In this document: in pieces, positions 6,202 through 21,219 of the stretch
How the letters are laid out: every line of letters starts with the position of its first letter
Numbering within the stretch: the stretch's first letter is position 1
Assembly (NCBI RefSeq): GCF_030815955.1
Contig: NZ_JAUSXK010000001.1
Span: forward strand, 2,852,001 to 2,916,000
DNA from: Microbacterium murale
GTDB taxonomy: Bacteria > Actinomycetota > Actinomycetes > Actinomycetales > Microbacteriaceae
Length of the DNA stretch: 64,000 bases
Direction: 5' to 3'
Notes under the pieces: model-generated
What the model was told of the DNA's origin: nothing
Databases searched by the model: none
What the model saw: the letters and a program-made list of their open reading frames with translations, nothing else
Program-made: the position numbers and the translations under genes

Positions 6202-8004
6202 TCACTCCAGCTTGCCGAGTTCGACGAGGCGCGCGAAGTCAGGGTTCTGCTCCTTGACCTCGTCGAACGTCCCGGCCGCGGCGACAGTGCCCGAGTCGAG
6301 GTAGATGAGCTCGTCCGCGCCGCGCACGGTCGACAGCCGATGCGCCACCACGATGATCGTCATCCGGCCGCGCAGGGTGTTCAGTGTCTGCGCGATCTCG
6401 TGCTCGGTCGCGTTGTCGAGCGCCGAGGTGGCCTCATCGAGCACCAGCACGCTCGGCTCACGGTAGAGCGCCCTGGCGAGACCGACGCGCTGGCGCTGTC
6501 CGCCCGAGAGTCGCACGCCGCGGTCGCCGACGGCGGTGCCGAGGCCTTCGGGGAGCTGGTCGATCAGGTCGCGCAGCTGCGCCATCTCCAATGCAGACCG
6601 GAGGCGCTCGTCGTCGACGTTCTCCGGCGCGACGCCGAAGGCTATGTTCGCGCGCAGGGTGTCGTTCGTGAGGAAGACGTCCTGCGGGACGACGCCCAGT
6701 TCCGCGTACCAGGCGGCGAGATCCTCGTTGATCGGGCGGCCTCCGCTCGTCACGGTTCCGCTCGTCGGCGTGAGCAATCCCAGCACCAGATCGAGCAGCG
6801 TGCTCTTGCCCGCACCGCTCGAGCCGACGAACGCCGTCGTCTGGTCGGCGGGGATTCTCAGGCTCAGGTCATCGATCGTCGGGGCATCCGCATCTTCGTA
6901 GCGGAACGTGACGTTCTGCAACTGGATGTCGCCGAGGAAGCGGCGCTCGTCGCGGCGCTGCTCCTCATGCGGGGCGTCGGCGCTGAGCTCGTCCAGAGTC
7001 TCGGTGAGAATGCGCAGGCCGGCCTGGCCGCTGCGCACCGTGGCGAAGTTCGACGTGATCCGTGTCATTGTCGGCAGTGCGCGCATGGATGCGGCGGCGA
7101 ACAGGCCGAGCACGGGCAGCACCTGTGCGCCCTGTCCGATCGCGGTGAGGACCCAGGCGATTGCGATGATCGCGAGGATGAACGCGACTTCGAGGAAATA
7201 CCGGGGGATCTCGGCGAGGATCGAGCGCGTGCGGTTGAGGTCGGCGCGGTGCAGCTGCGTCGTGCGGAAGCCGTCGACCAGGGTTCCAGCGCTTGAGGCG
7301 AGCCGGGTCTCGCGGAAGCCGTCGAGGGCGGGCATCAGGAACTGCCAGCTCTCCAGGCTCGCCTGCGCGGTCTGCTCGCCGATGCGTAACTGGCGCGGGC
7401 GCAGCACGCGCTGCGTGATCGCGATGAGCAGTCCGAACACGACGACGGTGAGCAGCGTCGCCACGGGCGAGTTCACAGCGAGCACGACGGTGATCGCCGC
7501 GAGCACGAGGAAGTCGCTGAACAGGCTCACCACGCCCAGAAGCACACTGGCGGCCTGCGAGGTGCAGTCGGTGATCTTCCAGTACGTCTCGCTGATCGCG
7601 CGGGAGCGGTGCTTGGCGAAGGGCGAGAGCACGAAGCGCCGCATGAGCTCGGACGAGGCGCGTGCCGACACCCGCGAGGTGCGACCTATCAGCCACCACC
7701 GGAACACCAGGGCTCCGATGCTCTTGAGGATGAACGCCACGGCGACCAGGCCTGCGACGGCGGGCAGCAGCGTGTTGACGTCGGTCGTGCCGAGTACGTC
7801 TGCGGCCGCGTCGATCACGAAGCTGTCGCCGGTCTCGCCGGTGACCAGCTGCATGAGCGGGACCATGGCTGCGACGCCGATGGTGTCGAGCGCGGCCAGG
7901 GCGAGCGAGGCGAACACCGTTCCGGCGATCCAGGCGATCGGGTTGGCGCCGGTCACGACGAGCAGACGGCGCAGCATCGTCGGTATGCCTGGAGAGGTGC
8001 TCAT
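6202..8004 (-). CDS. ABC transporter, fused permease and ATPase (MsbA-like exporter)
   Basis: 600 residues. Residues 1-320 contain six predicted membrane helices; residues 350-600 form the ATPase with Walker A GSSGAGKST, Q-loop VVPQDVF, signature LSGGQRQR, Walker B VLVLDEATSALD and the H-loop VVAHRLST. It is a half-transporter that must dimerise, and its place in the polysaccharide locus suggests export or flipping of a lipid-linked glycan; no Wzx-type flippase is seen in the window. AAAGGTGA eight bases before the ATG supports the start. A lipid, peptide or drug substrate cannot be ruled out. Confidence 0.85.
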   Translation of the reverse strand: MSTSPGIPTMLRRLLVVTGANPIAWIAGTVFASLALAALDTIGVAAMVPLMQLVTGETGDSFVIDAAADVLGTTDVNTLLPAVAGLVAVAFILKSIGALVFRWWLIGRTSRVSARASSELMRRFVLSPFAKHRSRAISETYWKITDCTSQAASVLLGVVSLFSDFLVLAAITVVLAVNSPVATLLTVVVFGLLIAITQRVLRPRQLRIGEQTAQASLESWQFLMPALDGFRETRLASSAGTLVDGFRTTQLHRADLNRTRSILAEIPRYFLEVAFILAIIAIAWVLTAIGQGAQVLPVLGLFAAASMRALPTMTRITSNFATVRSGQAGLRILTETLDELSADAPHEEQRRDERRFLGDIQLQNVTFRYEDADAPTIDDLSLRIPADQTTAFVGSSGAGKSTLLDLVLGLLTPTSGTVTSGGRPINEDLAAWYAELGVVPQDVFLTNDTLRANIAFGVAPENVDDERLRSALEMAQLRDLIDQLPEGLGTAVGDRGVRLSGGQRQRVGLARALYREPSVLVLDEATSALDNATEHEIAQTLNTLRGRMTIIVVAHRLSTVRGADELIYLDSGTVAAAGTFDEVKEQNPDFARLVELGKLE

Positions 8005-8147: not shown

Positions 8148-8651
8148 ATGGTTGACAAAGTAGCGACCACTTCGGAGGGCATCAGCCGCCGAACCGTGAC
8201 CAAGGCGATGGCCTGGGCTCTACCGGCGATCGCGATAGCCGCGCCGGTGCCGGCATTCGCGGCATCCGGCGATACGCCCACCATCACACCAGGCGCCGCG
8301 TGCAAGGCGCCGGGCAACAGCTGCGCTCCGATCGTCAAGGGCTACAGTGTGCCCGCGACGGTGAACAATCCGAGCGACAAGACCATCTACGTGACGGCGA
8401 TCGTCATCAACGTCAACACCAGCGGTATCGCGTTCGGGTTGAACCCGATCCCGCCGCTGCCGTGGACGGTTCCAGCCGGCGGCTCACTCAACGTGAACTT
8501 CAACGCCACGAGCGGCAACAGCGCCAACCTCGACTTCCAGCTCGGCTTCAGCGTCACATGGGGCCACGAGATCGACGGTTCCGACATGGAGCACGCACCG
8601 ATTCAGGTCACCGTGACGGTTCCGGCCACACCGCCGGACTGCTGCAAGTAA
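8148..8651 (+). CDS. Small Tat-exported protein with four cysteines, unknown function
   Basis: 167 residues. The N-terminus has a twin-arginine motif (SRRTVTK), a hydrophobic stretch ALPAIAIAAPV and an AFA-A cleavage site near residue 36. The mature part is rich in Asn, Thr, Ser and Val, with YVTAIVINVNTS and SVTWGH segments typical of an all-beta sandwich. It has two cysteines near the new N-terminus (ACKAPGNSC) and a Cys-Cys pair in the last five residues (DCCK), so it may form two disulfides. It has the same plan as the protein at 40486. Four codons upstream a TTG could start it, but the ATG at 8148 is preferred. The protein is not recognised; its place suggests a surface or secreted role linked to the polysaccharide. 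Confidence 0.75.
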   Translation: MVDKVATTSEGISRRTVTKAMAWALPAIAIAAPVPAFAASGDTPTITPGAACKAPGNSCAPIVKGYSVPATVNNPSDKTIYVTAIVINVNTSGIAFGLNPIPPLPWTVPAGGSLNVNFNATSGNSANLDFQLGFSVTWGHEIDGSDMEHAPIQVTVTVPATPPDCCK

Positions 8652-8751: not shown

Positions 8752-9855
8752 TCAGCGGATCGACGTCAGGATCTGACCCATCTGACGCACTCGTGCGCTC
8801 CAGTCGATGTCGGCGGCGCTTGCTGACCCCTCCGGCACTGATGACTCGAGCGCAGTTCCCACCGCGTGAGCGAAGTCATCCCCGCCGGCGATCCGGATGC
8901 GCGGGTCCGCGCTATCGCGGAACCCGGCGACCGCGGTCGAGACGACCGGACGTCCGGCAGCCCGGTACTCGTACAGCTTGATCGGATCGAGACTGTCGGT
9001 GAACGTCGTGACCCGGTGCGGCACGATCAGCACGTCGGCATGCTGCAGGAACGCCGGCACATCGTCGCGAGCGACCGATCCGAGGCGCAGCACGCCTGCG
9101 GCGTCGAGCCGGTCGCGGTCGGCCGCGCTGAGTAGATCGGGCCCCGCCAGAACGAGCCGTACCCGGTCTGCGAGCTCATCGGCGACGCGCACGCACAGCT
9201 CCACATCGAGACGGTCGTCATGCAGGGTGCCGAGGTAGAGGGCGACCGGTGCCGGCGGCATGATGCCTGGCCGGGAGGCCTGCGCGCGATATGCCTCGAG
9301 ATCGACGCCGTTGGGCACCAGATGGATGTCGTCGCGCTGCGGGCTCTTTCGACGCACGAGTTCGGGAGAGCACGCGACGACCGCGTCGGCACGATTCAGC
9401 AGCAGAGCCTCGCCTGCGGCGATCCGCTCGAGCTCAGCTGCCGGACGAGCAGCACTCAGCCAGTCGTCAGTGATGTCGTAGAGCGAACGCCAACCGGTGA
9501 GCGCGACGATTCCGGCAGCGGCCGGATCGTTGACCCACAGCAGCGGTGTCGTGAAGCCGAGTTGCGCCGCCGCCCGTCTGATCGCCCGTGCCCTGCGGTC
9601 ATCGCCGCCCGCGTCCCATCGTCGGGGGAGCCACTTCACCGGCCGCAATGTCCAGAGCCGTTCGCCGATGGGCGTCAGCGGGGTACCGAACTGCGGCCCG
9701 CGTCGCCCGCGCAGATCATGCAGCGGATCGTCCGGCGGCTCCACGAACAGCACTCGCAGCATCGGATCGGCGGCGACGAGCCCGGCGATGAGGTGCTGGT
9801 TGCGGCGCCATACGGCATCCCAACGCTCGAGGGAGAGCACGATGAGATCATTCAT
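8752..9855 (-). CDS. Glycosyltransferase family 1/4 (GT-B)
   Basis: 367 residues. The N-terminal half has LIVLSLERWDAVWRRNQHLI and SLYDITDDWL, seen in a group of GT-B enzymes that start with a W-D-x-V-W-R-R-N-Q segment. The C-terminal half has VALYLGTLHDDRLDVELCV (donor-domain start), LVLAGP and SLDPIKLYEYRAAGRPVVST, equivalent to the E-x7-E region. No signal peptide. It is the last gene of a three-gene minus-strand operon (12937-8752) with four-base overlaps, so it probably acts after the two glycosyltransferases encoded ahead of it. Sugar specificity is unknown. Confidence 0.8.
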   Translation of the reverse strand: MNDLIVLSLERWDAVWRRNQHLIAGLVAADPMLRVLFVEPPDDPLHDLRGRRGPQFGTPLTPIGERLWTLRPVKWLPRRWDAGGDDRRARAIRRAAAQLGFTTPLLWVNDPAAAGIVALTGWRSLYDITDDWLSAARPAAELERIAAGEALLLNRADAVVACSPELVRRKSPQRDDIHLVPNGVDLEAYRAQASRPGIMPPAPVALYLGTLHDDRLDVELCVRVADELADRVRLVLAGPDLLSAADRDRLDAAGVLRLGSVARDDVPAFLQHADVLIVPHRVTTFTDSLDPIKLYEYRAAGRPVVSTAVAGFRDSADPRIRIAGGDDFAHAVGTALESSVPEGSASAADIDWSARVRQMGQILTSIR

Positions 9856-10895
9856 GCGAGCCTCCCGGCGATCGCGTCGCGGTACACGGCGTCGGTGCCG
9901 GCGACCTGACGCTCGATCGAGAACTCCGAGAGCGCGCGCTCGCGCGCCGCGGCCGCCAGCCGTCGGCGACGATCCGGATCGTCTGCGAAGGCACGCAGCG
10001 CCGTCGCGGCGTCAGCCACGTCGTCGGGACGGAACAGCGCGCGCTCGTCGAGTCCCTCCAGCAGGTCGAGATGACCGGCCGCACCGGCGGCGATGGGGGC
10101 GAGTCCGAACGACATGGCCTCGAGGACGGCGAGCCCGAGCCCCTCGACCGGGCACGTCGACAGCAACAGGGAAGAGGACTTCAGGAGTTCGGGCACATCG
10201 TCACGGAAGCCGATCAGCAGGGCTGAATCGCGGAGGCCCAGCTCGGCGATGAGCGCTTCGAGTTCGGCGCGGTCGGGTCCTTCACCGAGGATGAGGAGCC
10301 CCCAGTCCTCGGCAGCGAGACCGGATGTCGCGAACGCCCGTACGCCGATCGCGGTGTGCTTCTCGGGCTGCAGCCGCTGCACCATGAGAATGCGGCGCGC
10401 AACGGGGTGACGAGGCTGATCGTCCGAGGTGTTCGTGGCGGCGGGCAGGCCAGGGTGCACCACCGTGCTCGCCATGCCCGTTGCCGCGGCCACGGCCCTG
10501 CTCACCGCGATCTCGGCATCGACTCGGCGGAGGAACGGATCTATCGAAAGGGGACCCGCGTGTGCGCGTCGTCCCGCGAAATGCCGGGTCGACACGAGCG
10601 CGGTCCGGCGGCCGAGCAGGGCGATGGCGGATGCCGCGTCCGCCGCCGTCATGTGCGAATTCACCACATCGGCGGGAGTGCGACGCACTGCTCTCATGAC
10701 GTCGAGCGCGGTGCGCGCGGGGACCGCGTGGACGCCGGCCCGCTCCAGCGTCGAGCTCATGTGCCCGGGGGCACCGCCGGCCACTGTCACATGATGGCCG
10801 TGCTCGGCTTGCGCGGCGGCGAGACGCCTCACGAACTGCTCCACACCCGCGAAGCGGTCGGATGCGATGGTGTGGAGGATGCGCAGCGGCGTCAC
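9852..10895 (-). CDS. Glycosyltransferase family 4
   Basis: 347 residues. PLRILHTIASDRFAGVEQFV is the classic N-terminus of GT4 enzymes; ILMVQRLQPEKHTAIGVRAF begins the donor domain; CPVEGLGLAVLEAMSFG is the E-x7-E donor motif. The GTG at 10895 has AGGAGG six bases upstream; the frame remains open to 11654 but that part only shadows the fusion gene. Both ends overlap neighbours by four bases (ATGA and GTGA), so translation is coupled. Donor sugar is not predictable. Confidence 0.85.
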   Translation of the reverse strand: MTPLRILHTIASDRFAGVEQFVRRLAAAQAEHGHHVTVAGGAPGHMSSTLERAGVHAVPARTALDVMRAVRRTPADVVNSHMTAADAASAIALLGRRTALVSTRHFAGRRAHAGPLSIDPFLRRVDAEIAVSRAVAAATGMASTVVHPGLPAATNTSDDQPRHPVARRILMVQRLQPEKHTAIGVRAFATSGLAAEDWGLLILGEGPDRAELEALIAELGLRDSALLIGFRDDVPELLKSSSLLLSTCPVEGLGLAVLEAMSFGLAPIAAGAAGHLDLLEGLDERALFRPDDVADAATALRAFADDPDRRRRLAAAARERALSEFSIERQVAGTDAVYRDAIAGRLA

Positions 10896-12937
10896 CGTGT
10901 CGCCTCCTGCCCTTCTCCGACCGGGCGTTCGTGGACGGCATCCGGACGGAAGCGCGCCTCGACGTGGATCGGACCCAGTCGGTAGTTCGCCGCGCGACGT
11001 CGCGCCTGGGTGCGGCGTTCTCCGCGCAGCACGGCTGCCCGTGCGAGCGCGCCGGCCCATCCGGAGACGCGGGCGACTGCCCACCCGGCGGTGCCGAAGT
11101 GCTTGCGGAAGTAGCGCTCCTGCGACGCGAAGAAGTATGCCTCGCGGTGCCTCGGATCCGTGCTCGTGCCGCCGGCGATGTGCCGTGCGGTCACTTCGTC
11201 GACGACGCGGTGCCGCCAGCCGAGTCGGTGCGCACGATAGGCCCAGTCGGTCTCCTCCGCGTAGAGGAAGAAGCGCTCGTCGAAGCCGCCCACCTGCGCG
11301 AGCGCCTCGGCACGCAGCAGCAGAACCGACCCGATCACGAAGTGCGCTCCGCGCTGGAAACGTCCGAGGCCCACGGCATCCATGACCGCCCGGTGCGGGG
11401 TGGGGAACGGCCACTCCACTCGAGCACGACGGCCGTCGCCGTCGACCTGGGCCGGCCCGACGCTGGCGAGCGACGGATCGGCGCGGAGCGCCCGCTGCAG
11501 CTGCTCGATGCCTGCCGGGTCGATCTCGGCATCCGGGTTCAGCAGCAGTAGATCGGCGCCGGCGATCAGACGGTCGGTCAGAGCGAGGTTCACCGCCGCA
11601 CCGAATCCGAGATTCGCTCCGGAATCGCGGTAGCGCACGCCGAGATCGCGGCACAGCGCAGCGATCTCAGGCAGCGAGGAGTTGTCGATCACGGTCACGG
11701 CGAGCCCGGCGACGGGCTCGAGCGCTCTGCGCAGCATCTGCGGCGCCCCGTACGCCACGACGATGATCTCGACGGGGCCAGGAACTTCTGCGTTCTCGGC
11801 CACTGGTGAACCGTTCGCGGCACCGCGTACGACCGACCGGTACAGGTCCTGGTACGCGCCGGCCACGCTGTCCCAACTGCACTCCGCGGCGCGCGCCCGC
11901 CCGGCGGTCACCAGCTCGGCGCGTCGGGGACCGGCGGCTTCGACCAGCGCTGCGGCGAGAGCGGTGGGATCCTCTCTCGGCACGACGATGCCCGCACCGC
12001 CGACGACGTCTGGCAGGGCGCCGGCGTCGCTGGAAACCACCGGCACCCCCATCGCCATGGCCTCGACCGCGACGCGGCCGAATTGCTCGGTCCACCCCGG
12101 CCGGGGCACGGACGGCACCGCCAGCACGTCGATGGAACGGTAGAAATCTTCCACCCGTGCGGGATCGACTGCCCCGATCACGGCGACGCGATCCGCGATC
12201 CCGCGCTGTGCCGTCCAGTCGTCCAGGCTGCTCTCGAGTGGCCCGGATCCGCCGATCCGCGCGTGCAGCCGAGGGTCGAGCGCGAGGGCGTCGAGAAGCG
12301 TGGCGATGCCCTTCTCCGGCACCAGGCGCCCGAGCATCCCGACCGTGATGCGGTCGGTGTCTCGGCCATCTGCCGGGTCAGCGCCGGCCGCAGCGACTCC
12401 CGAAGTCGGATCTGCTTCGGAGACCGTGTCCACTCCGAGCGGGATCACTCGAGCGCGACCGGCGAAGCCCTTGGCCTCTGCGATCCGTGCCGCCTCGGTG
12501 TTGCACGCCGAGATGCCGCCGGCGCGGCCGAGCGCCCACCTCTCCAGCCAGCGGAACGGCGCCGGGTAGCGCTTCTGCAGGTTCTGCGCGGTGTAGAGCA
12601 CGACCGGAGCACTGTTTCGCCGCAGCATCCGCACCACGAGCACTTCGGCGGTGCTGAGGGCGAACGGCTCCTCGTGGATGTCGATCACGTCCCATTTCTC
12701 GCCGAGAGCGCGCCACAGCGGCCGTGGGTCATAGACGAACAGCGCCGGATGAGTCCCGAAAGCGCGGGCGGGGATGACGTTCTCGTCAGCGCCAGCATCC
12801 AGCTCGACCCAGACGCCGCCCGCATGCCAGCGCCGTGCAGTGATCAGCGCGACATCATCGCCCCGCCGGCGGAGGGCCCGCTCCCGACCCCGCCATGCGG
12901 CGACCGCGGCGCTGTGCGAAATCCGAAGTACCCGCAC
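10892..12937 (-). CDS. Two-domain glycosyltransferase: GT4 fused to GT2
   Basis: 681 residues. Residues 1-390 are a GT4 enzyme: VRVLRISHSAAVAAWRGRER at the start, ITVGMLGRLVPEKGIATLLD, and EQFGRVAVEAMAMGVPVV as the donor motif. Residues 400-660 are a GT2 enzyme: VEIIVVAYGAPQMLRRALE, DSGANLGFGAAVN, LLLLNPDAEID (metal-binding) and FFLYAEETDWAYRAHRLGW (catalytic ED). This second half resembles rhamnosyltransferases of the WbbL group. One polypeptide could add two sugars in turn. The GTG at 12937 is preceded by GGGGAGG four bases away, which favours it over ATGs up to 13063. First gene of a minus-strand operon with the two genes ending at 9852 and 8752. Confidence 0.85.
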   Translation of the reverse strand: MRVLRISHSAAVAAWRGRERALRRRGDDVALITARRWHAGGVWVELDAGADENVIPARAFGTHPALFVYDPRPLWRALGEKWDVIDIHEEPFALSTAEVLVVRMLRRNSAPVVLYTAQNLQKRYPAPFRWLERWALGRAGGISACNTEAARIAEAKGFAGRARVIPLGVDTVSEADPTSGVAAAGADPADGRDTDRITVGMLGRLVPEKGIATLLDALALDPRLHARIGGSGPLESSLDDWTAQRGIADRVAVIGAVDPARVEDFYRSIDVLAVPSVPRPGWTEQFGRVAVEAMAMGVPVVSSDAGALPDVVGGAGIVVPREDPTALAAALVEAAGPRRAELVTAGRARAAECSWDSVAGAYQDLYRSVVRGAANGSPVAENAEVPGPVEIIVVAYGAPQMLRRALEPVAGLAVTVIDNSSLPEIAALCRDLGVRYRDSGANLGFGAAVNLALTDRLIAGADLLLLNPDAEIDPAGIEQLQRALRADPSLASVGPAQVDGDGRRARVEWPFPTPHRAVMDAVGLGRFQRGAHFVIGSVLLLRAEALAQVGGFDERFFLYAEETDWAYRAHRLGWRHRVVDEVTARHIAGGTSTDPRHREAYFFASQERYFRKHFGTAGWAVARVSGWAGALARAAVLRGERRTQARRRAANYRLGPIHVEARFRPDAVHERPVGEGQEATR

Positions 12938-13034
12938 ATTGCCTCCCCAGGATATGCTCTGTGTGAGCAACACTATCCGTCCATCCATGCGCTGGGGAGT
13001 GCGGGACGGATAGCAGCCTTCTGGGGAGGCAAAC
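12938..13034. promoter_or_regulatory. Palindromic divergent promoter region
   Basis: The gap between the fusion glycosyltransferase (minus) and the GT4 gene (plus) is nearly symmetric. GCCTCCCCAG at the left end mirrors CTGGGGAGGC at the right end; each is the ribosome site of its own gene. Between them CTATCCGTCC (12972-12981) and GGACGGATAG (13003-13012) form a perfect ten-base inverted repeat around a further CTGGGGAG. TATGCT (12953-12958, plus) and TATCCT on the minus strand are -10 candidates. The repeat may be an operator or a leader hairpin. Confidence 0.5.
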
Positions 13035-14237
13035 GTGGGGAACTCGTACTCGAGTGCGCGCACTCTGCGCGTCGTGCATCTCGATCACACCACCGTGCGC
13101 GGCGGCGCCGAGCTCGCTCTCGTGCGCCTGCTCGCCGCAGAGCAGTCCGCCTCGGAACACGCATGGATTCCGGCGGTGCTTGTGCCGGCGATCGACGAGG
13201 ATGACGTGTTCGCCGAGCTGCCATCGTCAGTCATCCGACGCACGCGCGGGGTGCGTCAGAGCGCAGGGGGCAGCGGCTCGTCGCCCCTGCGGCTGGCCGC
13301 GCTCGCCGCACGTCTGCTGTATCAGGCCGTGCTCACCCGAACCCACCCGAATGTCCGAACGGCCGACGTCGTCATCGCGAACAGCACCAGGGCCGCGGCG
13401 TACGCGGCTCTGGCCCTTCAGCTCTCGCGCACGCCGCTGGTCGTGCAGCTGCGCGACATGATCGACGAGGAGAGCCTCGGTGCGCTCGGGTATCGCCTGA
13501 TGACGAAGGTCGTGCTGCCGCGGGCGGATGCCGTGATCGGAAACTCCCGGACCACCCTCGCCGGGGCCCTTCCGTTCCTGCGGCCAGGGGTGGCGGCAGT
13601 CGTCATCCACAGCGCATCCGGACTGACGCTCTCCCTCGGCCGGACGCGGCAGGCGCGACCGGCCGGTCCGCTGCGGATCGGGATGCTGGCACGCATCGAT
13701 CCCTGGAAGGGACAGCTCGAACTGCTCGAGGCGTTCGCTGCGGCGTTCCCGACCGGGACGGCGCAACTCGAACTCGCCGGGGGAGCGCCGTTCGAGCAGG
13801 CCGGGTTCGCCGAGCGGCTCAGCGAGCGCGCTGCAGAACTCGGAATGGCAGACCGCGTGCGCCTGCTCGGGCACGTCGACGACACCGCCGCGCTGCTGGC
13901 GCGCTGGGACATCGCGGTGCAGTACTCCACCCGCGCCGAGCCGATGGGGCAGAACGTGCTGCAGTACCTCGCCGCGGGCGCCGTCACCGTGGTCGCCGCC
14001 GAAGGCGGGCCTGTGGAGTGGGTCGACGACGGTGTCAACGGACGAACCGTACCGCCGCGCAGGGTGGACGAGCTGACCAGGGTGCTGCGTGAGCTGGCCG
14101 ACGATCCCGCGCAGTGCGAGCGTCTGAGCGCTGCGGCTGCGCAGACGCCGGGGCTGCTCGACGATGCCGCCGTCGCCGCGGCACACGCCGAGGTGTTCCA
14201 CGACGTGCGCCGCGTGCGGCCGGGTCGTCGGGCATAA
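13035..14237 (+). CDS. Glycosyltransferase family 4
   Basis: 400 residues. LRVVHLDHTTVRGGAELALV opens the acceptor domain (GGAE is the glycine-rich loop of GT4 enzymes). LRIGMLARIDPWKGQLELLE starts the donor domain and STRAEPMGQNVLQYLAAGAV takes the place of the E-x7-E motif, with Gln where Gly-Leu is usual. The GTG at 13035 has GGGGAGG with a five-base spacing. It is the first plus-strand gene from the palindromic divergent promoter. A nine-base gap follows before the nucleotidyltransferase gene, which has its own leaderless promoter. Confidence 0.85.
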   Translation: MGNSYSSARTLRVVHLDHTTVRGGAELALVRLLAAEQSASEHAWIPAVLVPAIDEDDVFAELPSSVIRRTRGVRQSAGGSGSSPLRLAALAARLLYQAVLTRTHPNVRTADVVIANSTRAAAYAALALQLSRTPLVVQLRDMIDEESLGALGYRLMTKVVLPRADAVIGNSRTTLAGALPFLRPGVAAVVIHSASGLTLSLGRTRQARPAGPLRIGMLARIDPWKGQLELLEAFAAAFPTGTAQLELAGGAPFEQAGFAERLSERAAELGMADRVRLLGHVDDTAALLARWDIAVQYSTRAEPMGQNVLQYLAAGAVTVVAAEGGPVEWVDDGVNGRTVPPRRVDELTRVLRELADDPAQCERLSAAAAQTPGLLDDAAVAAAHAEVFHDVRRVRPGRRA

Positions 14238-14246: not shown

Positions 14247-15110
14247 GTGGACTCGATGGAGACGACCCCGATCTCACTCGATGTGCGGATCGAGTTCAGC
14301 CGTGCCGCGATCGAGGTGATCGCACGACGCCTCGGCATCCGCGTGCTGCACATCAAGGGGTCGACTCTGGACAGCACTCTGCGCCGACGTAGACGAAGCG
14401 GGACCGACGTCGATGCGATCGTCGATCCGCTCTCGGTTCCGGCCATGCACGATGCGCTGATCGGCCATGACTGGACGCTCTACAGTTCCTTCACCGAGGG
14501 GTCGCCGTTCGGGCATGCGCAGACCTATCATCACGCGGAGTGGGGCTACGTCGACCTGCATCGTCGATTTCCCGGGATCGCTCTGCCCGATCAGGACGCG
14601 TTCGACGTGCTGTGGGCAGGGCACGGCACCCATTTCGCTGCAGGGATCGAATGCGCGGTTCCATCGGTGGATGCGCAGGCGGTGCTGTTCGTGCTCAATG
14701 CCGCGCGCGATCTCGACGTGCTGGGAGAAGAGGCGCGCGCGTTGTGGTCCGCTCAGGGCGAGGAGGCGCGGATCCGCCGGTCGAGGCTGGTGAGGATGCT
14801 GCACGCCGAGGTCGCGTTCGGCGCCGGCCTCGGCGATCTGGAACGATATCGCGATCGGCGGGAGTACCTGCTCTGGAAGACGGTGTCGCAAGGCGGTGGA
14901 CGGCTCGCGGAGTGGTGGGGTCGGATCAAAGCGGCCCCCACCTTCGGAGACGCGCTGCGCACGGCCGCGCAGGCGCCGCGGGTCAACCGTGCAGTGCTCG
15001 CGCACGAACTGGGCCGGGAACCCCGTCCCATCGACGTGCTCTTCGCCTTTGCACGGCGAATCGACGCGGCGTTGCGGAGCATCCGACCGCGACCACGGGG
15101 GCGATCATGA
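14247..15110 (+). CDS. NTP_transf_5-type nucleotidyltransferase family protein
   Basis: 287 residues. LHIKGSTLDSTLRRRRRSGT followed by DVDAIVDPLSVPAMHDAL is the K-G-x-x-L ... S-x-D-x-D pattern of the uncharacterised nucleotidyltransferase family (Pfam NTP_transf_5), with the two aspartates as metal ligands; WGYVDLHRRFPG supplies the third acidic residue. Members are often encoded beside PqqD-like and HPr-kinase-like proteins, in lasso-peptide clusters (such as paeninodin) and in polysaccharide loci; both partners are present here. It starts at GTG 14247 from a leaderless promoter and overlaps the PqqD-like gene by four bases (ATGA). The substrate may be a peptide, a lipid carrier or a sugar; I cannot tell. 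Confidence 0.75.
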   Translation: MDSMETTPISLDVRIEFSRAAIEVIARRLGIRVLHIKGSTLDSTLRRRRRSGTDVDAIVDPLSVPAMHDALIGHDWTLYSSFTEGSPFGHAQTYHHAEWGYVDLHRRFPGIALPDQDAFDVLWAGHGTHFAAGIECAVPSVDAQAVLFVLNAARDLDVLGEEARALWSAQGEEARIRRSRLVRMLHAEVAFGAGLGDLERYRDRREYLLWKTVSQGGGRLAEWWGRIKAAPTFGDALRTAAQAPRVNRAVLAHELGREPRPIDVLFAFARRIDAALRSIRPRPRGRS

Positions 15111-15373
15111 CGCGCTTCGCTCAGGCCCCGGATGTCGGCGTGATAGACGATGGCATCCGCGTGTTCGCTGCGGCCCTTCCCGACGGGCCGGTCGTCGTGC
15201 TCGCCGATATCGCGGCGGCCGTGTGGCGTGCTGCCCCGGGGCGGGACCTGCACGCCCTGGCGGTACGGCTGATCGAAGATGGAATCTGCACGGAAGATGA
15301 CGCGCACTCGGATGCAGTGCTGTTCACGCACGCGCTGATCGACGTGAAACTGCTGCATGAGGAGGAATTCTGA
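15107..15373 (+). CDS. PqqD-like protein
   Basis: 88 residues. VVLADIAAAVWRAAPG followed by DLHALAVRLIEDG is the core of the PqqD/RRE fold, a small winged-helix protein that binds leader peptides of ribosomally made, modified peptides and presents them to modifying enzymes. The usual N-terminal beta-hairpin (VIDDGIRVFAAALPDGPVVV) is present. The gene overlaps the nucleotidyltransferase gene by four bases and the MauE-thioredoxin gene by one base, so the three are made together. In HPr-kinase-associated systems PqqD-like proteins have no proven peptide partner. No short leader-peptide gene was found next to it. Confidence 0.75.
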   Translation: MTRFAQAPDVGVIDDGIRVFAAALPDGPVVVLADIAAAVWRAAPGRDLHALAVRLIEDGICTEDDAHSDAVLFTHALIDVKLLHEEEF

Positions 15374-16401
15374 TGGAACCGGAGTTCATGGCAGCCCCGC
15401 TCATCCTCGCTGGCGTGCTCGTCGCCAGCGGGGTGGCGAAGCTGCGGCAACCGGAAGACGCCGCCGCATGGGAGGAGCTCGGTGTTCCCGCCGTTCTGCG
15501 CCGCGGCTGGCTGATCCGGCTGCACCCGTGGGGAGAGGGGCTGCTGGCCGCCGCGCTGCTGGCCCTCGGCGGGGTGCTGGGCGCGCTCGCGTCGGCATGC
15601 GCCGTCATCCTGTTCGGCGCGTATCTACTGCTCGTGACGCGCCGTCTGGCCGCCGGCGCGGACGCCTCATGCACCTGCTTCGGCGCACGCGAGCCGATCA
15701 CGGCTGTCACCGTGGTGCGCAATGCGTGGTTCCTGCTCCTGGCGGTCTTCGCGACCGCCGTCACCTGGAGCACGCCGCTGCTCGGGGGGCCGCTCGCCGC
15801 ACTCGGAGACCAGTGGTCGTGGCTGGTCGGCATCGCGGCGGGCGCTTTCACAGTCGCGCTCGTGTTGTGGCACCCGGCATCCGTCGCCAGCGCCCTCGAC
15901 GCCGGAGTGCCGACGATCGGAGGCCGGAACACGCAAGGCGCTGAGGGCGCCGCGGGGAGCGATGCCGACCCGGCGGAGTACATCCGCACCCGTACGCCCG
16001 CTGTGCCCGTGACGCTGGCCGACGGCAGCACGGTGAATCTGCGCCAACTCGCCGCGCGGGGCCCGATGCTGCTGCTCGCAGTGAAGGAGGACTGCGGGGC
16101 GTGCCGCCCAGTGATTGAGGCGACGCCGGGCTGGCGCGAGCTGCTGCCGGAGGTGTCGGTGAGGTTCCTGCTGTGGCCGGCTCCGGAGAACAGTGCACTC
16201 ACCGAGCTCACCGAGCCGCAGTCTCTGCACGATCCGTACTTCTACGTGCAGGGCTCGATCGCCGATTGGGCGACGCCGACGGCCGTGCTCATCGGTGCCG
16301 ACGGCTACCTGGCAGGCGGGCCGGTGTCAGGGTTCGACGAGGTCTCCGAGTTCGTCGGCGATATTTACGAGAGCCTGCACGGGGTGCGGCCGCAGCACTG
16401 A
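15373..16401 (+). CDS. MauE-like membrane protein fused to a thioredoxin-like domain
   Basis: 342 residues. Residues 1-160 have four predicted membrane helices. They include the MauE/DoxX-type signature: PLILAGVLVASGVAKLRQPE at the start and a Cys-x-Cys-Phe-Gly (SCTCFG) between helices three and four. Residues 205-340 form a thioredoxin-like domain with a CGAC active site (VKEDCGACRPV) and the cis-proline region WATPTAVLI. MauE helps form disulfides in methylamine dehydrogenase, so this protein probably moves electrons across the membrane to or from a disulfide-containing exported protein. The four-cysteine Tat protein at 8148 is an obvious candidate substrate (inference). The ATG overlaps the PqqD stop; the stop is only four bases from the convergent DUF4012 gene. 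Confidence 0.8.
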   Translation: MEPEFMAAPLILAGVLVASGVAKLRQPEDAAAWEELGVPAVLRRGWLIRLHPWGEGLLAAALLALGGVLGALASACAVILFGAYLLLVTRRLAAGADASCTCFGAREPITAVTVVRNAWFLLLAVFATAVTWSTPLLGGPLAALGDQWSWLVGIAAGAFTVALVLWHPASVASALDAGVPTIGGRNTQGAEGAAGSDADPAEYIRTRTPAVPVTLADGSTVNLRQLAARGPMLLLAVKEDCGACRPVIEATPGWRELLPEVSVRFLLWPAPENSALTELTEPQSLHDPYFYVQGSIADWATPTAVLIGADGYLAGGPVSGFDEVSEFVGDIYESLHGVRPQH

Positions 16402-16405
16402 AGCG

Positions 16406-18265
16406 TCAGCCGCAGCCTTCTGCGGTGAGCTGCTCGCTTACGGTACGCACCATCGGGGTGTGCTGGATGTCGAGCGGACCGTACTCGCCGGCGGCGCCGG
16501 TGAAGGTCGCCTCGACCGTGTGGGTCTGAGCCGGCAGGTTCTCGACGGCGATCTTGACCGCGCCGCGGCCGAGGTGCTGAACCCCGCCGACCTCCACCGG
16601 CTGTCCGTCGACCGTCGCACCCGTGAACGTCGAACCCACCGGCCCGTAGAACACCAGATACGTGGCGACGGTGCCCTTGGTGAAGTAGTTTCCTGGGGCG
16701 ATCGGACGTGGAAGTTCCGGCGCCTGCTCCGGTGTCACGGTGTTCGTCAGCGTCGCCGTCGTGGTGAACGTCGGGCTGTCGGGTGCGGTGCACTGGGTCG
16801 ACGACGCTGCGACATCGAGCTGCATGTAGTAGTCGAGCTTGCTCTGCGTGAAGTCGTTCACATAGACGCCGACCAGCGTGCGCTCCTCGTTGGTACTGGG
16901 CAGCCGGCCCGACAGCTTCGACTCGCCGACGAGCGCGGCTTCAGCCTCTGTGGCGGGGGAATACAGCAGGCGGTTCTCGTCGACCGCGTGGGCGAGGCTG
17001 TCCACAAGTGCCTTGGGATCCGCGCTGCCCGATGTGATGATGTCGAAGATCGATCGTGCGGCCGCGGCGAAGACGGCGTCCTGCTGATACCCCTCGGGGA
17101 ACATCCAGTACACCTCATTCAGTAGCAGCGGCACAGCGTTCTCGCTCGTGAGGGTGATCGGCTCGTCGAGCAACTGCACGGTCTCCCCGTCGATCTCGAA
17201 CGGCTCCGCGGGGATAACGGCGGGACCTGTGGCCTGCAGAAGGTAGCTGAGGGCCACCGGGTCGAACGACACGACGGCATCCACCGGCGTGCCGAAGGCC
17301 TCGGCCCAGTACGCGCGGATGACTTCGACCGACTCGCTGAAGTCGGGGCTCATCGTGGTGTCGGAGATCCAGCGGCCGACCTTGTCGCCGTACAGGGCTT
17401 CCAGTTCGGGGTTCAGCGCGGTGACCGGCTCTGGGCGTCCGTTGGCGAAATCGGCGCTTGACGCCTGCTGGGTGATACTGATCCGGCCCTGGTCGGCGGT
17501 GATCATCACGATCGCGGCCGGGTTACCGCCGGTGCCGCGTGACTCGGCGTTGTTCTGGAAGACCATCAGATAGTTGCGCGGTGCCTCTGCGCCGAGTGCG
17601 GTCGGCAGGATGCCGATGATGTCCTTGGCCGGTCCCAGCAGCGGCTGCATCTCGTCGACCGCATCGGTCAGCTGCGTGAGCGCGCCACCCACCTGGGGGA
17701 TGAGCGCGTCCCGATCGACCGAGTCGAGATCGGTCGCGGCCTTCTCGACGGCATCCGCCGCCTGTGTCACGGCCGCCTGCATGTCGGTGATCGCCGCGAG
17801 GTTGATGGCACCGTCCACCGGGGTGAGCGCCTTGAGGCTCAGGCTCGTCGCCGGCGTCAGGGCGTCGTTGACCAGATCATCGGTGACGACGGCCGCGGTG
17901 CGCACCGCGTGGAGGTTGGGTCCGACGAACGGCACCCACTCGAGGTTCTTCCACATCTCGTCATCGGTCTGCTTCCGAGCATCCGCGGTGAGTGCCGACA
18001 GCGTTGCCGCGGTCGCACTCGCGCCTTCTGAATCGCCGGCGAGGATCTGGTCCTTGGCGGTCGATGCGAGCGGCAGCGCCTGCTCGAGCGAGTCCTTGGC
18101 AGCCATCGCCCGGTCATAGAGACGATTGCCGACGAGAAGACCGACGACGGCGATCACGATCAGCAGCAGAACGATGCCCACTGGAACCCACAGACGGAAG
18201 CTGCGAAGCAGGGGGCGGCGCGGTCGGTCGGCGCGGCGGGCGCGCTCGGCTGCTCTGGTCGTCAT
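16406..18265 (-). CDS. DUF4012 membrane protein
   Basis: 619 residues: a basic N-terminus, one membrane helix at about residues 26-48, then a large outside domain. APRNYLMVFQNNAESRGTGG, about residue 225, is the hallmark of DUF4012, whose genes sit in polysaccharide loci of actinobacteria; the fold is related to LytR-CpsA-Psr-like proteins in some annotations, but catalysis has not been shown to my knowledge. A C-terminal beta-rich part (about 490-600) has one cysteine pair candidate (Cys 496 region and the final ECG). The start is an ATG with TACGAT six bases before it (leaderless). Probably handles glycan at the outer membrane face. Confidence 0.8.
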   Translation of the reverse strand: MTTRAAERARRADRPRRPLLRSFRLWVPVGIVLLLIVIAVVGLLVGNRLYDRAMAAKDSLEQALPLASTAKDQILAGDSEGASATAATLSALTADARKQTDDEMWKNLEWVPFVGPNLHAVRTAAVVTDDLVNDALTPATSLSLKALTPVDGAINLAAITDMQAAVTQAADAVEKAATDLDSVDRDALIPQVGGALTQLTDAVDEMQPLLGPAKDIIGILPTALGAEAPRNYLMVFQNNAESRGTGGNPAAIVMITADQGRISITQQASSADFANGRPEPVTALNPELEALYGDKVGRWISDTTMSPDFSESVEVIRAYWAEAFGTPVDAVVSFDPVALSYLLQATGPAVIPAEPFEIDGETVQLLDEPITLTSENAVPLLLNEVYWMFPEGYQQDAVFAAAARSIFDIITSGSADPKALVDSLAHAVDENRLLYSPATEAEAALVGESKLSGRLPSTNEERTLVGVYVNDFTQSKLDYYMQLDVAASSTQCTAPDSPTFTTTATLTNTVTPEQAPELPRPIAPGNYFTKGTVATYLVFYGPVGSTFTGATVDGQPVEVGGVQHLGRGAVKIAVENLPAQTHTVEATFTGAAGEYGPLDIQHTPMVRTVSEQLTAEGCG

Positions 18266-18271
18266 GAACTC

Positions 18272-18277
18272 ATCGTA
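18272..18277 (-). promoter_or_regulatory. -10 element of a leaderless gene
   Basis: TACGAT on the minus strand, six bases before the ATG at 18265 of the DUF4012 gene. Confidence 0.5.
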
Positions 18278-18310
18278 CGAGCACGAGGCAGGTCGTTCCT
18301 GCGGGAGTGC

Positions 18311-19885
18311 TCAATACGCCCCCCGTCGCTGCAGCACCACGCGCAAGGTCCGCCACAGAATCGCCACATCGCTTGTCAGCGACCGGTTCTCGACGTAGTA
18401 GAGGTCGAGGCGGATGCTGTCATCCCACGACAGATCGGACCGGCCGCTGATCTGCCACAGGCCAGTGATCCCCGGTTTGACGAGCAGCCGCCGCTGCACC
18501 CACTTCTCGTACGTGTCTACCTCGCTCATGAGCGGAGGGCGCGGCCCCACCAGCGACATGTCGCCGCGCAGCACGTTGACCAGTTGAGGCAGCTCATCCA
18601 GGCTGAGCTGCCTGAGCTTCTGCCCGAGACTGGTCACCCGCGGATCGCTGCGCATCTTGAAGAGCACGCCGTTGCCTTCGGATGCGGCGAGCAGATCGGG
18701 CAGGCGCTGCTCGGCATCGGTCACCATCGTGCGGAACTTGAGCATCGTGAAGCGCCGTCCCTCGAGCCCGACCCTGCGTTGACGGAATAGTGCCGGGCCG
18801 CCGTCACGCCGCACCATCACGGCGAGCACCAGGAACAGCGGGCTCAGCGCGACCAGCGCCAGCGAGGAGACGACGACGTCGAACGCGCGCTTGGCCGCGT
18901 ACCGCGAACCGGTGAAGGCCGGGTAGTCGACGTGGATCAGCGAGAGTCCTGCGACAGGCCTGGCATGGATGCGGGGACCGGCGATGTCGGTGAGTGCGGC
19001 GGCGACGATGAGGTCGACATTGCGCGACTGCAGATCCCAGCCGAACTGTCGTAGCTGTGCCGGGCTGATCAGATCGGAACCGCTGTAGACCACGGCATCC
19101 ACGCCGACGAGTTCAGTGCCGGCGATGGCATCCTCAAGGCTGCCGACGACGGGGATGCCCGGCAGCAGCTCCACGCCCGGTCCTCGTTCGGTGAGCGCAC
19201 CGGTGATCACGAGTCCTGAGGTGCTGTCGCGCTGCATCTCCCGAGCGATGTGCAGAGATTTGGCGTGCTCGCCGACGATCACCGCGTGAGAGAGGAATCG
19301 GCCCTCATCGCGCTGGGCGGCCAGCCAGCGCCGCCACAGCCAGCGGCTGCCCACGAGCGCCGTCACGCCTGCGGGCAGAGCCAGTAGCAGGTACGCGCGT
19401 GCGACGTCGATGTGCAGCAGGAAGGCGAAGATCGCCAGCAGGCCGAACACGCGGATGCTGGCATCGACGACTCGGCGGTACTCCGCCCAGCCGCTGCCGA
19501 CGACCTTGGCGTCCCTGGTGTCATACAGACGCAGCCCGCAGATCCACGCGAGCACGAACACCGCAGAGACAGCCGTGTATGCGACGTCGAAACCCGCACC
19601 AGTGACGCCTGGGATGTACAGGTCGGCGTTGCTCTGGCCGAAGCGCAGGGCCTGGGCACCGAACACGACCCCCACGATGATCAGCGAGTCCGTCAGCAGC
19701 AGGCGCCATGCGTAATCACGCTGCCATCTCCCGGCCTGCGCCGCGACGACGGCGCTTTCCGCTGTCGTCGGCACCGCTCGAGTGAGAGGCGGTGCCGCGG
19801 CGATCGCCGTCGGCAATGCCCCAGTTGTGCTTCTGTTCTGCCTCCGCAGTCGCGGCGTCAGAATGGCTTCCCCAGATAATGCCAC
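18311..19885 (-). CDS. Polyprenyl-phosphate sugar-1-phosphate transferase (initiating enzyme)
   Basis: 524 residues. The N-terminal half has four to five membrane helices and a soluble CoA-binding-like domain, as in WbaP/CpsE. The C-terminal catalytic part has KRAFDVVVSSLALVALSP (re-entrant helix), KFRTMVTDAEQ, LRQLSLDELPQLVNVLRGDM and VGPRPPLMSEVDTYEKW, then KPGITGLWQISGRSDLSWDD, all conserved in this family. It moves a sugar-phosphate from a UDP-sugar to undecaprenyl phosphate and starts the repeat unit built by the surrounding glycosyltransferases. GTG 19885 has GGGAGGG three bases upstream; the frame remains open to 19927 without a better site. Shares a divergent promoter region with the HPr-kinase-like gene. 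Confidence 0.88.
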   Translation of the reverse strand: MALSGEAILTPRLRRQNRSTTGALPTAIAAAPPLTRAVPTTAESAVVAAQAGRWQRDYAWRLLLTDSLIIVGVVFGAQALRFGQSNADLYIPGVTGAGFDVAYTAVSAVFVLAWICGLRLYDTRDAKVVGSGWAEYRRVVDASIRVFGLLAIFAFLLHIDVARAYLLLALPAGVTALVGSRWLWRRWLAAQRDEGRFLSHAVIVGEHAKSLHIAREMQRDSTSGLVITGALTERGPGVELLPGIPVVGSLEDAIAGTELVGVDAVVYSGSDLISPAQLRQFGWDLQSRNVDLIVAAALTDIAGPRIHARPVAGLSLIHVDYPAFTGSRYAAKRAFDVVVSSLALVALSPLFLVLAVMVRRDGGPALFRQRRVGLEGRRFTMLKFRTMVTDAEQRLPDLLAASEGNGVLFKMRSDPRVTSLGQKLRQLSLDELPQLVNVLRGDMSLVGPRPPLMSEVDTYEKWVQRRLLVKPGITGLWQISGRSDLSWDDSIRLDLYYVENRSLTSDVAILWRTLRVVLQRRGAY

Positions 19886-20127
19886 AATCCCTCCCCAGAG
19901 AATGCGCGCCCCAGTTGCTCCCGACAACGTCGGAAGCTGCCTCCTGCAGAACAGGAGACGATGTCAGCGTTGCCCCAGCAAACGCCGCTTTCCCCCGGTT
20001 CGCACCGGAGGCCCAGACCCGCAGTCTAGCCCCGGAGCCGGGATTGCGATACCCGCAGATCGCACCCGCCGAAGCAGTGCTCCTGTCTGTAGTACCGTTG
20101 GGCGTGATTCTGGGGGAGGGTGCCGTG
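19886..20127. promoter_or_regulatory. Divergent regulatory region with repeated CCCCAG motifs and small hairpins
   Basis: 242 bases between the sugar-phosphate transferase (minus) and the HPr-kinase-like gene (plus). It contains CCCCAG at about 19892, 19909 and 19975, the same core as in the ribosome-site region of both genes (CTGGGGAGG or CTGGGGGAGG). CCGAC/GTCGG (19921-19933) and CTCCT/AGGAG (19941-19957) are two adjacent small inverted repeats. TACCGT at 20093-20098 is a -10 candidate for the plus-strand gene. No open reading frame of its own was found. Confidence 0.4.
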
Positions 20128-21219
20128 GTGACGAGGTCGACGCTCGCCGTGTCAGCGCTGGGTGCCCGCATCGAGCTGGCGTTCGACGAAGAGGTTCCGG
20201 AGGACGTGGTCGCCCGCATCCGGCGGTCGTGGTCAGGCGCCGCGATCGAACCCGGTTCCGCTGCCGCTGCGTCGGCTGCCGACCCGGCCTCCGATGCGCG
20301 GATCGACGTCGACACGAGCGGTGATGTCGAACGGCGCTTGGAGTCCTTGTCGACCAGAGTGACTCTCGATGCGCTCGCCCACAACCGCGGCCGCCTGATG
20401 ATGCTGCACGCCGCGGGCATCGCGCTCGACGACGGACGCGTGATCGCTTTCGTCGGGCCGTCCGGCCGGGGCAAGACCACCCTCAGCCGCACACTCGCGC
20501 AGCGATTCGGCTACGTGTCGGACGAGACGATCGCCTTCGACCACGAACTCCGTGTGCTGCCGTACCGCAAGCCGCTCTCGGTCGTGCGCGCGGGCGCGCC
20601 GAAGGATCAGGTCGCGCCTGCGGATGCGGGACTGCGTGAACTTCCGGACGCAGAGCTGACACTCGCGGCGATCGTGCTGCTCGACCGTGATCCGAGCGCG
20701 ATCGAGCCCGTGGTCGAGCATCTGCACTTCGCCGATGCCGCGCCGCTGCTCGCCGCGCAGTCCAGCTACCTGCTCGAGTACGACGGGACGGTGTGCGCTC
20801 TCGCCGAGCTCTGCGATCGTGTCGGCGGCGTGCGTCTGCTGCGATATGCGGAGGCTGCCGACGTGCCCGCGATGATCGATCGGCTGCTCGCATCTGAGCC
20901 GGAGCCCGCGCACTGGACGCGGATGCGGATGCATCCGATCGACGCCGATGGGGCGTCGACGACAGCGGACGCCGTCGACTACGGCGACGCCGTGGTGGCG
21001 TTCTCCGACAGCACGCTGCGTGTGCTCGAGGGCATTGCTCCCGCAGTGCTGCGCGCCGCGAACGAGTCCGCTGATTTCGACCGAGTGGTGAGCGCCGTGC
21101 TCGACAGTCACGGTACGCCGCCCAGCGGAGACGCATCCGGGGCGGTGCGCGAAGTTCTCGTGGAGCTCGCCGACGCTGGGCTCGTGTCGGCATCCGTCAT
21201 TCCGGTGCCGCGCTCGTAA
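20128..21219 (+). CDS. HPr-kinase-like P-loop protein
   Basis: 363 residues. VIAFVGPSGRGKTTLSRTLA (about residue 110-130) is a Walker A loop like that of HPr kinase/phosphorylase, followed by VSDETIAFD, the acidic segment of this family. No second HPr-kinase motif (the 203-212-type signature) is evident, so it belongs to the HprK-related group rather than true HprK. Relatives are found with PqqD-like and NTP_transf_5 proteins and one, in lasso-peptide clusters, phosphorylates a C-terminal serine. GTG 20128 follows GGGGGAGGG by seven bases; GTG 20104 would suit a leaderless start. The last 100 residues may be a PqqD-like or winged-helix domain (VREVLVELADAGLVSAS). Confidence 0.7.
   Translation: MTRSTLAVSALGARIELAFDEEVPEDVVARIRRSWSGAAIEPGSAAAASAADPASDARIDVDTSGDVERRLESLSTRVTLDALAHNRGRLMMLHAAGIALDDGRVIAFVGPSGRGKTTLSRTLAQRFGYVSDETIAFDHELRVLPYRKPLSVVRAGAPKDQVAPADAGLRELPDAELTLAAIVLLDRDPSAIEPVVEHLHFADAAPLLAAQSSYLLEYDGTVCALAELCDRVGGVRLLRYAEAADVPAMIDRLLASEPEPAHWTRMRMHPIDADGASTTADAVDYGDAVVAFSDSTLRVLEGIAPAVLRAANESADFDRVVSAVLDSHGTPPSGDASGAVREVLVELADAGLVSASVIPVPRS

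Follow-up and report, generated by a model that had tools for sequence, protein, structure and literature searches.

We propose that the HprK-like kinase, the NTP_transf_5-like nucleotidyltransferase (NTP5) and the PqqD-like RRE protein encoded in a 64 000-nucleotide stretch of the Microbacterium murale genome (the window) make up a single maturation machine serving a group of exported proteins recognizable by their signature Tat signal (T), a reading whose probability we estimate at about two in three. The features concerned are collected in Table 1.

Table 1. Features of the window that bear on the proposed maturation machine, with positions counted from the first nucleotide of the window.
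Feature	Position	Strand	Basis
NTP_transf_5-like nucleotidyltransferase (NTP5)	14247..15110	+	Pfam, family comparison
Stand-alone PqqD-like RRE protein	15107..15373	+	Profile, fold
MauE membrane domain with thioredoxin-like part; proposed disulfide catalyst	15373..16401	+	Pfam and by eye
HprK-like kinase (PEPCK/HprK fold)	20125..21219	+	Start inferred from relatives
C-terminal PqqD-like (RRE) domain of the kinase	20914..21219	+	Profile
Tat-signal protein (167 aa); proposed substrate	8148..8651	+	
Signature Tat signal of the 8148 protein	8175..8270	+	
Second protein with the same Tat signal	40486..40935	-	
MsbA/PglK-like ABC exporter adjoining the Tat gene; context	6202..7977	-	
Glycosyltransferases; context	8752..14237	8752-12937 on -, 13035-14237 on +	
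DUF4012 protein; context, not module-specific	16406..18181	-	Pfam, 118-genome distribution
Polyprenyl-phosphate sugar-1-phosphate transferase; context, not module-specific	18311..19774	-	

All four module genes, three of them an overlapping trio, lie where the first-pass annotation of this DNA had placed them; the NTP5, PqqD-like and MauE genes overlap by 4 and 1 bases, in that order. In a Pfam scan the window NTP5 matched PF14907 with an E-value of 9e-6 and 25.8 bits, against a gathering score of 31.2, and 23 of the 24 members of its family match PF14907 at 1e-3; its DxD...D motif is complete, and a PDB search gave no match. The open reading frame of the kinase begins at 19792, with a start near the tabulated position favoured by relatives, and the protein displays the HprK/PEPCK fold and a P-loop with a downstream acidic pair. 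The first-pass annotation had recognized it as an HprK-like P-loop protein and overlooked the PqqD-like domain fused to its C-terminus. The MauE half of what had been described as a membrane redox fusion was confirmed by Pfam (PF07291, 3.7e-16), and the thioredoxin-like C-terminal part, for which the Pfam scan gave no match, was recognized by eye from its CGAC motif.

The window PqqD-like protein alone reached only E = 0.11 against PF05402, and a Pfam PqqD search of its own genome found nothing; the family is too distant for Pfam, and profiles were therefore needed. The family profile matched the lasso RRE protein TbiB1 (E = 2.7e-12) and PqqD (2.5e-7). The structure model, for which a missing peptide-binding surface had been named beforehand as an argument against the module, shows an RRE fold, with TbiB1 and TfuB1, leader bound, as the nearest folds (TM scores of 0.83 and 0.78) at weak Foldseek E-values (best 1.5e-3). 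Ten of 25 family members match the B1-type model lasso_PqqD_Bac, the window member being without an NCBIfam match; fold and profile similarity taken together mark an RRE/PqqD-like domain. In two RRE proteins adjoining NTP5 at other loci (L216 and L223) the middle helices are absent. The structure alignment of the kinase spanned model residues 1-301, and its C-terminus was therefore assessed by profile, which identified a fused RRE with a probability of 97.9%. Some NTP5 proteins carry a shortened RRE-like N-terminus (profile probability 93%), and the profiles of this segment and of the kinase C-terminus gave no mutual match (9.9%).

The T signal has the consensus RRTVxKGAAWSxPVIxxAxxxPxAAAS, represented in the 8148 protein by R14 and R15, W23 (codon at 8214), P26 (8223), I28 (8229), P35 (8250) and S40 (8265). 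A twin arginine (frequencies of 0.99 for R5 and 1.00 for R6 in 156 signals) precedes a hydrophobic stretch and an AxA site, as in Tat signals, export itself being predicted. An aromatic-xx-P-x-[ILVM] motif is present in 113 of 114 T signals, and a search model blind to the tryptophan, the proline and column 19 still recovered W in 165 and P in 166 of 168 matches. The resulting W(-17)xxP(-14)x[IVL](-12) is in register with the YxxPxL of lasso leaders, W replacing Y at the same spacing. In the lasso literature, the BsfA leader has YxxPxL at -17 to -12, phosphorylation of BsfA by the lasso kinase BsfK is accelerated by the RRE protein BsfB1, and PsmN attaches a hexose to phosphoserine. The RR-to-W spacing is likewise fixed; a variant (L307), seen in a noisy regular-expression scan, alters it and keeps the W-to-Ser distance at 17, and we therefore build no claim on spacing.

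Conservation in the T proteins reaches the cleavage site and ends after the +1 residue, which is serine in 103 of 114; with a search model lacking the serine, it was still found in 153 of 172 matches, with threonine in nine. The serine could mirror a preference of signal peptidase. A control on the residue following AxA in ordinary signals was discarded, as its 'first AxA' rule fails on the T set itself. This conservation pattern, together with a signal peptidase I gene (PF10502) within about 10 kb of HprK in 49 of 79 loci, would suit a dedicated signal peptidase or special Tat component that reads the signal while the kinase, NTP5 and RRE proteins work elsewhere. We regard that as quite improbable: a peptidase site would not be expected to include W and P at 17 and 14 residues before the cut, the agreement in register with lasso leaders would have to be chance, and the Pfam scan of 20 window proteins revealed no signal peptidase I, an enzyme so general that its presence is not assessable by profile.

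The mature proteins have a median length of 152 aa (n = 114), and their genes are dispersed, with ten at eight places in the M. murale genome, 14 in another genome (G205) and up to 40 elsewhere. A gene adjoining many T genes was considered as a module component and dropped as an AraC-type regulator. The kinase, nucleotidyltransferase and B1-like RRE correspond to a lasso tailoring set and an ABC exporter is nearby, as might be seen in a degenerate or unrecognized lasso-type RiPP cluster producing a small peptide. Such a cluster is hard to reconcile with as many as 40 T genes per genome and products of this length. Moreover, a Pfam scan of 20 window proteins revealed neither the Asn-synthetase-like cyclase (C) nor the transglutaminase-like leader peptidase (B2), both already reported missing in the first-pass annotation, and neither was seen in the first 25 of 78 families among 68 HprK neighbours in relatives. 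We consider this explanation very improbable.

In actinobacteria, genomes that acquire or lose the signal tend to acquire or lose the machine as well. Among 118 genomes, T occurs in 34, a strong HprK match in 32 and NTP5 in 31 (three further genomes with weak HprK matches were left aside in this tally); all three are present in 30, none in 83 and a mixture in five, namely HprK only (G003), T with HprK (G020, 99% complete), T only (G023), T with NTP5 (G030) and a weak T match (G081). Every NTP5-bearing genome in this set has T. Random loss of the module amid retained polysaccharide genes, cited in advance as evidence against it, is not what was found, since kinase, NTP5 and T are jointly present or jointly absent in 113 of the 118. 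Fisher tests gave 2e-25 for T-NTP5, 7e-24 for T-HprK and 2e-24 for NTP5-HprK, values that overstate independence because the genomes are related. Class-wide, 246 genomes yielded 12 with T and 11 with strong HprK, the overlap being ten; all 11 also have NTP5, and in the one HprK genome outside the overlap a variant T gene adjoins HprK. Seven of the 18 NTP5 genomes in the class set lack both strong HprK and T, and two genomes (G081 and G346) have a single weak T match each. A search through named loci in 46 genomes with HprK found T in every one, in 1-40 copies. Within about 10 kb of 79 HprK loci, T lies in 53, NTP5 in 52 and both in 42; 16 loci have neither in reach, of which nine are Rathayibacter-type, and a search for T in those nine genomes located it elsewhere in every one.

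The module is situated among exopolysaccharide (EPS) genes: the 79 HprK loci include a Wzz/P-loop (tyrosine-kinase-like) gene in 66, an LMW phosphatase in 45 and a sugar transferase in 28, the first two family names each confirmed on one member. The module might accordingly serve the polysaccharide by phosphorylating or nucleotidylating a carrier or glycan enzyme, with the Tat proteins as co-inherited cargo of the EPS locus. This seems unlikely to us given the dispersal of the T genes, and a carrier would leave the W-xx-P-x-[IVL] signal unexplained. Some HprK genes, furthermore, adjoin argS and a lysA-like gene (L068, and L082 by clustering); the idea that these loci form an unrelated family was dropped, as their genomes also carry the Tat signal. 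The EPS markers do not follow the module in their distribution, DUF4012 occurring in 86 and the sugar transferase in 105 of the 118 genomes and in 55 and 73, respectively, of the 84 that are T-negative. The first-pass proposal of glycan control through a phosphorylated carrier found no direct support, EPS genes being this common where T is absent.

MauE was demoted from a core to an optional part because it is present in only 12 of the 118 genomes. At least two cysteines are present in 31 of 38 T proteins whose locus includes MauE, compared with 17 of 76 whose locus does not; the four cysteines noted previously in the 8148 protein were confirmed in its mature part (ACKAPGNSC ... PPDCCK). The earlier suggestion that an exported protein of this kind is matured by the module gains support from co-inheritance, the lasso-leader-like motif and the MauE-cysteine association.

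For the proposed maturation machine, we envisage that W-x-x-P-x-[IVL] would be bound in the cytoplasm by the RRE protein and by the kinase's own RRE domain, as YxxPxL is by lasso RREs, that the kinase would phosphorylate a hydroxyl residue, with the conserved +1 Ser/Thr as the most probable target, and that NTP5 would place a nucleotidyl or sugar group on the phosphate. The folded, modified protein would then be exported by Tat and cleaved by signal peptidase between AxA and S, and in MauE-bearing loci its cysteines may be joined outside the cell. More tentatively, and with considerable doubt, the Tat signal may double as a RiPP-type leader and a phosphosugar on Ser +1 might provide an N-terminal handle tying the protein to polysaccharide, which would make it the N-terminal equivalent of sortase, exosortase or lipobox anchoring for dozens of surface proteins. 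If the maturation machine is real, lasso-type leader recognition and phospho-tailoring extend to entire exported proteins, of which a genome encodes many, and a second message can ride on a Tat signal. For Microbacterium and relatives, the proposal specifies substrates, enzymes, the motif to be bound and a candidate residue, so that the role of kinase/nucleotidyltransferase/PqqD sets close to EPS loci can be tested directly.

The individual parts are familiar, and in their arrangement they match none of the established types compared here; a literature search, with subscription journals and preprints outside its scope, returned no paper combining them. The HPr-rel-A set (NCBIfam TIGR04352, HprK_rel_A; TIGR04353, PqqD_rel_X) contains distant relatives of the kinase and PqqD-like families, with 38 of 46 kinase members matching TIGR04352 at 0.001 and seven of 25 PqqD-like members matching TIGR04353 at 0.01. 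However, the window kinase barely touches HprK_rel_A (22.9 bits against a curated cut-off of 200), the window PqqD-like protein is without a match and NTP5 is matched by no NCBIfam model. MauE/MauD-type disulfide systems share the MauE domain and, as judged by eye, the CGAC thioredoxin-like part, whereas here one protein holds both and is linked to cysteine-containing T proteins.

The PEP-CTERM/exosortase (EpsH) system (PMC1569441) likewise has one machine serving many dispersed substrates with a common short signal, a patchy distribution and ties to EPS loci; it differs from the present system in that a C-terminal membrane segment is found in 0 of 114 T proteins and the signal here is N-terminal and of the Tat type. 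The phosphorylated or glycosylated lasso peptide clusters of paeninodin, pseudomycoidin and bsf (PMC10368454, PMC9266682) likewise combine an HprK-like kinase, a nucleotidyltransferase and a B1-type RRE, and their leaders likewise have aromatic-xx-P-x-aliphatic at -17/-14/-12 relative to the cut. Apart from the cyclase and leader peptidase discussed above, the present system differs from them in that its proposed substrates are entire proteins with a Tat signal, of which each genome may have many, that the Tat signal would itself be the leader and that the kinase carries a fused RRE domain.

The Tat-signal protein encoded at 8148 is the key to a module consisting of an NTP_transf_5-like protein (NTP5), a PqqD-like protein, a MauE-thioredoxin-like protein (MauE) and an HprK-like kinase (HprK). 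The first-pass annotation had placed these four proteins inside an exopolysaccharide locus, and its gene observations were borne out in the 64-kb window, which derives from a complete genome of 4.11 Mb: the first three genes form a trio in which the end of each overlaps the start of the next, an HprK-like ORF follows, and DUF4012 and sugar-1-phosphate transferase genes lie nearby. NTP5 scores slightly below the PF14907 cut-off, library models are only remotely related to the PqqD-like and HprK-like proteins, and the thioredoxin-like domain of MauE gave no Pfam match.

Features of the module, its surroundings and related genes elsewhere
Feature	Position	Remark
Tat-signal protein	8148–8651 (+)	
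NTP5	14247–15110	
PqqD-like protein	15107–15373	
MauE	15373–16401	
HprK	20125–21219	ORF open from 19792; start in relatives near 20125
ABC exporter, glycosyltransferases, DUF4012, sugar-1-phosphate transferase, VanZ		Surroundings of module genes
Another gene carrying this Tat signal	40486–40935	About 19 kb from the module
Second NTP5, MauE and Tat-signal set, own genome, outside the window	G000:C1:2833373-2836304	About 24–27 kb to the left of the Tat gene at 8148
Shortened PqqD-like protein, locus L216	2815–3024	69 aa; no middle helices; still after NTP5
Shortened PqqD-like protein, locus L223	1551–1769	72 aa; no middle helices; still after NTP5

Forty regions around HprK and NTP5 matches were fetched, and 8148-like Tat-signal proteins are present in 16 of the 41 regions obtained when the window is counted. 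The signal was modelled from 19 rows (A1) and sought, like the enzymes, in a set of 118 genomes that includes the source genome. The signal, hereafter T (as are proteins carrying it), was found in 34 genomes, NTP5 in 31 and HprK, at the threshold fixed beforehand, in 35. Setting aside three weak HprK matches (G021, G094 and G110) leaves 32 HprK genomes and an association with T of P = 7e-24 (1e-20 with them included). All three components occur in 30 genomes and none in 83, the mixed cases being G003, G020, G023, G030 and G081; four other families (f10, f12, f13 and f18) each include both positive and negative genomes. Of the controls, DUF4012 occurs in 86 of the 118 genomes (55 of the 84 T-negative ones) and the sugar transferase in 105 (73 of the 84).

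Across 246 genomes of the class, HprK was detected in 32 at 1e-8, with a gap in E-value between 8e-73 and 9e-29, and all 11 strong-HprK genomes contain NTP5. T was found in 12 of the 246, and the identical 12 came back from a wider 45-row model run at a less strict threshold: ten of the strong-HprK genomes together with G081 and G346, each of these two with a single weak match. In the eleventh strong-HprK genome, G327, a T variant adjoins HprK. Seven of the 18 NTP5 genomes of this set have neither strong HprK nor T. In family f45, none of whose sequences went into A1, five of the six strong-HprK genomes carry T, with up to 14 copies. T was also present, in 1–40 copies, in all 46 genomes searched via named HprK loci (46 of 79 loci); the genome sets are not independent, since the 45-row model holds signals from some named loci and some loci belong to genomes of the first set.

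Conservation among 156 signals is high at R5 (0.99), R6 (1.00), A13 (0.95), W14 (0.98), P17 (0.99), P26 (0.99) and S31 (0.88), and stops thereafter. An aromatic-xx-P-x-[ILVM] motif occurs in 113 of 114 non-redundant T proteins; of the 114, 103 have Ser and six have Thr at residue +1. The conservation is not an artefact of the search model: when W14, P17 and column 19 were masked, W was recovered in 165 and P in 166 of 168 matches, and with the signal end cut off, Ser was found in 153 and Thr in nine of 172. The matches were drawn from loci picked for HprK, NTP5 or T. The mature parts of the 114 proteins are mostly short (median 152 aa, maximum 732), with many Thr, Ser and Asn and few Lys, Arg and Glu residues. 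None has a C-terminal membrane segment, one has an LPxTG-like motif, and ten that were examined gave no Pfam domain above cut-off. At locus L082, a 912-residue T protein composed of RCC1 repeats adjoins HprK.

A profile built from 25 PqqD-like proteins matched the lasso leader-binding domain (RRE) TbiB1 (2.7e-12), a lasso PqqD chaperone (3.5e-12), PqqD (2.5e-7) and TfuB1 (1.3e-6) in the PDB. Modelled at pLDDT 95, the window's own PqqD-like protein superposes on TbiB1 and TfuB1, both of which contain leader peptide in their structures, with TM scores of 0.83 and 0.78, though with weak Foldseek E-values of 1.5e-3 and 1.4e-2. The kinase model (pLDDT 93) has the PEPCK/HprK fold, and its final 100 residues form a second RRE (97.9% against the PqqD-like family by profile–profile comparison; 3e-4 to TbiB1). 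A shortened RRE-like stretch forms the N-terminus of some NTP5 proteins (profile comparison 93%) and gave no direct match to the kinase RRE (9.9%); K37, G38, D54, D56 and D103 are kept in all 24 rows of the NTP5 alignment.

If T is cut at A30|S31, an assumed site, W(-17), P(-14) and [IVL](-12) fall in the register of the YxxPxL motif at -17 to -12 of the bsf lasso leader, as described in PMC10368454, which also describes faster phosphorylation of Ser3 by the HprK-like BsfK with the RRE BsfB1. For pseudomycoidin, the account in PMC9266682 has the kinase PsmK phosphorylating Ser and the nucleotidyltransferase-like PsmN adding hexoses, directly or after nucleotidylation. From this shared register and these precedents we infer that the RREs would hold the Tat signal while the kinase and NTP5 modify the protein, which Tat would then export folded. 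The leading candidate for the modification site is Ser +1.

MauE is an optional part. At least two Cys occur in 31 of 38 T proteins in MauE loci versus 17 of 76 without MauE (P = 1.4e-9), and, when only T genes directly adjoining MauE are counted, in ten of 14 (P = 6e-4), kinship being ignored in both. A CK-x-PG motif is common to ten of 114 T proteins, including the 8148 protein, from Microbacterium and Agromyces loci and one locus of another family (L085). The pattern fits a role for MauE as disulfide catalyst for some T substrates.

The 79 HprK loci, some of them truncated where a contig ends, come from Microbacterium, Agromyces, Rathayibacter, Pseudoclavibacter, Herbiconiux, Leucobacter, Arthrobacter and others. 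Within about 10 kb of HprK, T lies in 53, NTP5 in 52, both in 42 and neither in 16; a Wzz/P-loop gene is present in 66, signal peptidase I in 49 and MauE in 25. Provided that the searched contig is the L210 record, Microbacterium sp. AK031 shares the window's arrangement, with T some 11.9 kb upstream of HprK. Neither NTP5 nor T lies within 10 kb in nine Rathayibacter-type HprK loci (L226, L244, L249, L254, L257, L260, L264, L265 and L276); conserved thymidine kinase and response-regulator-like genes lie upstream, with radical SAM in seven (names from L226 alone), and all nine genomes carry 8–37 T genes elsewhere. In a Microbacterium group (L068, L074, L075, L082–L084, L086, L093 and L094), HprK stands by itself next to argS and further housekeeping genes; in some of these genomes, long open frames of about 700–2000 codons nearby bear T signals. 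A Microbacterium-like HprK/T/NTP5 locus on a contig titled Stenotrophomonas maltophilia P13 (L243) is probably contamination in that assembly.

A literature search for this combination of parts found nothing, and a word search of the main text of two RRE papers (PMC12710340 and PMC7470986) returned no HPr, kinase, nucleotidyltransferase or twin-arginine. The nearest idea, as presented in PMC1569441, is PEP-CTERM/EpsH. Membership in the lasso, HPr-rel-A and PEP-CTERM classes was tested, and for each a defining feature was not found here, for lasso systems among the 20 window proteins scanned. By analogy, the module would work like a lasso tailoring set coupled to a many-substrate sorting signal.
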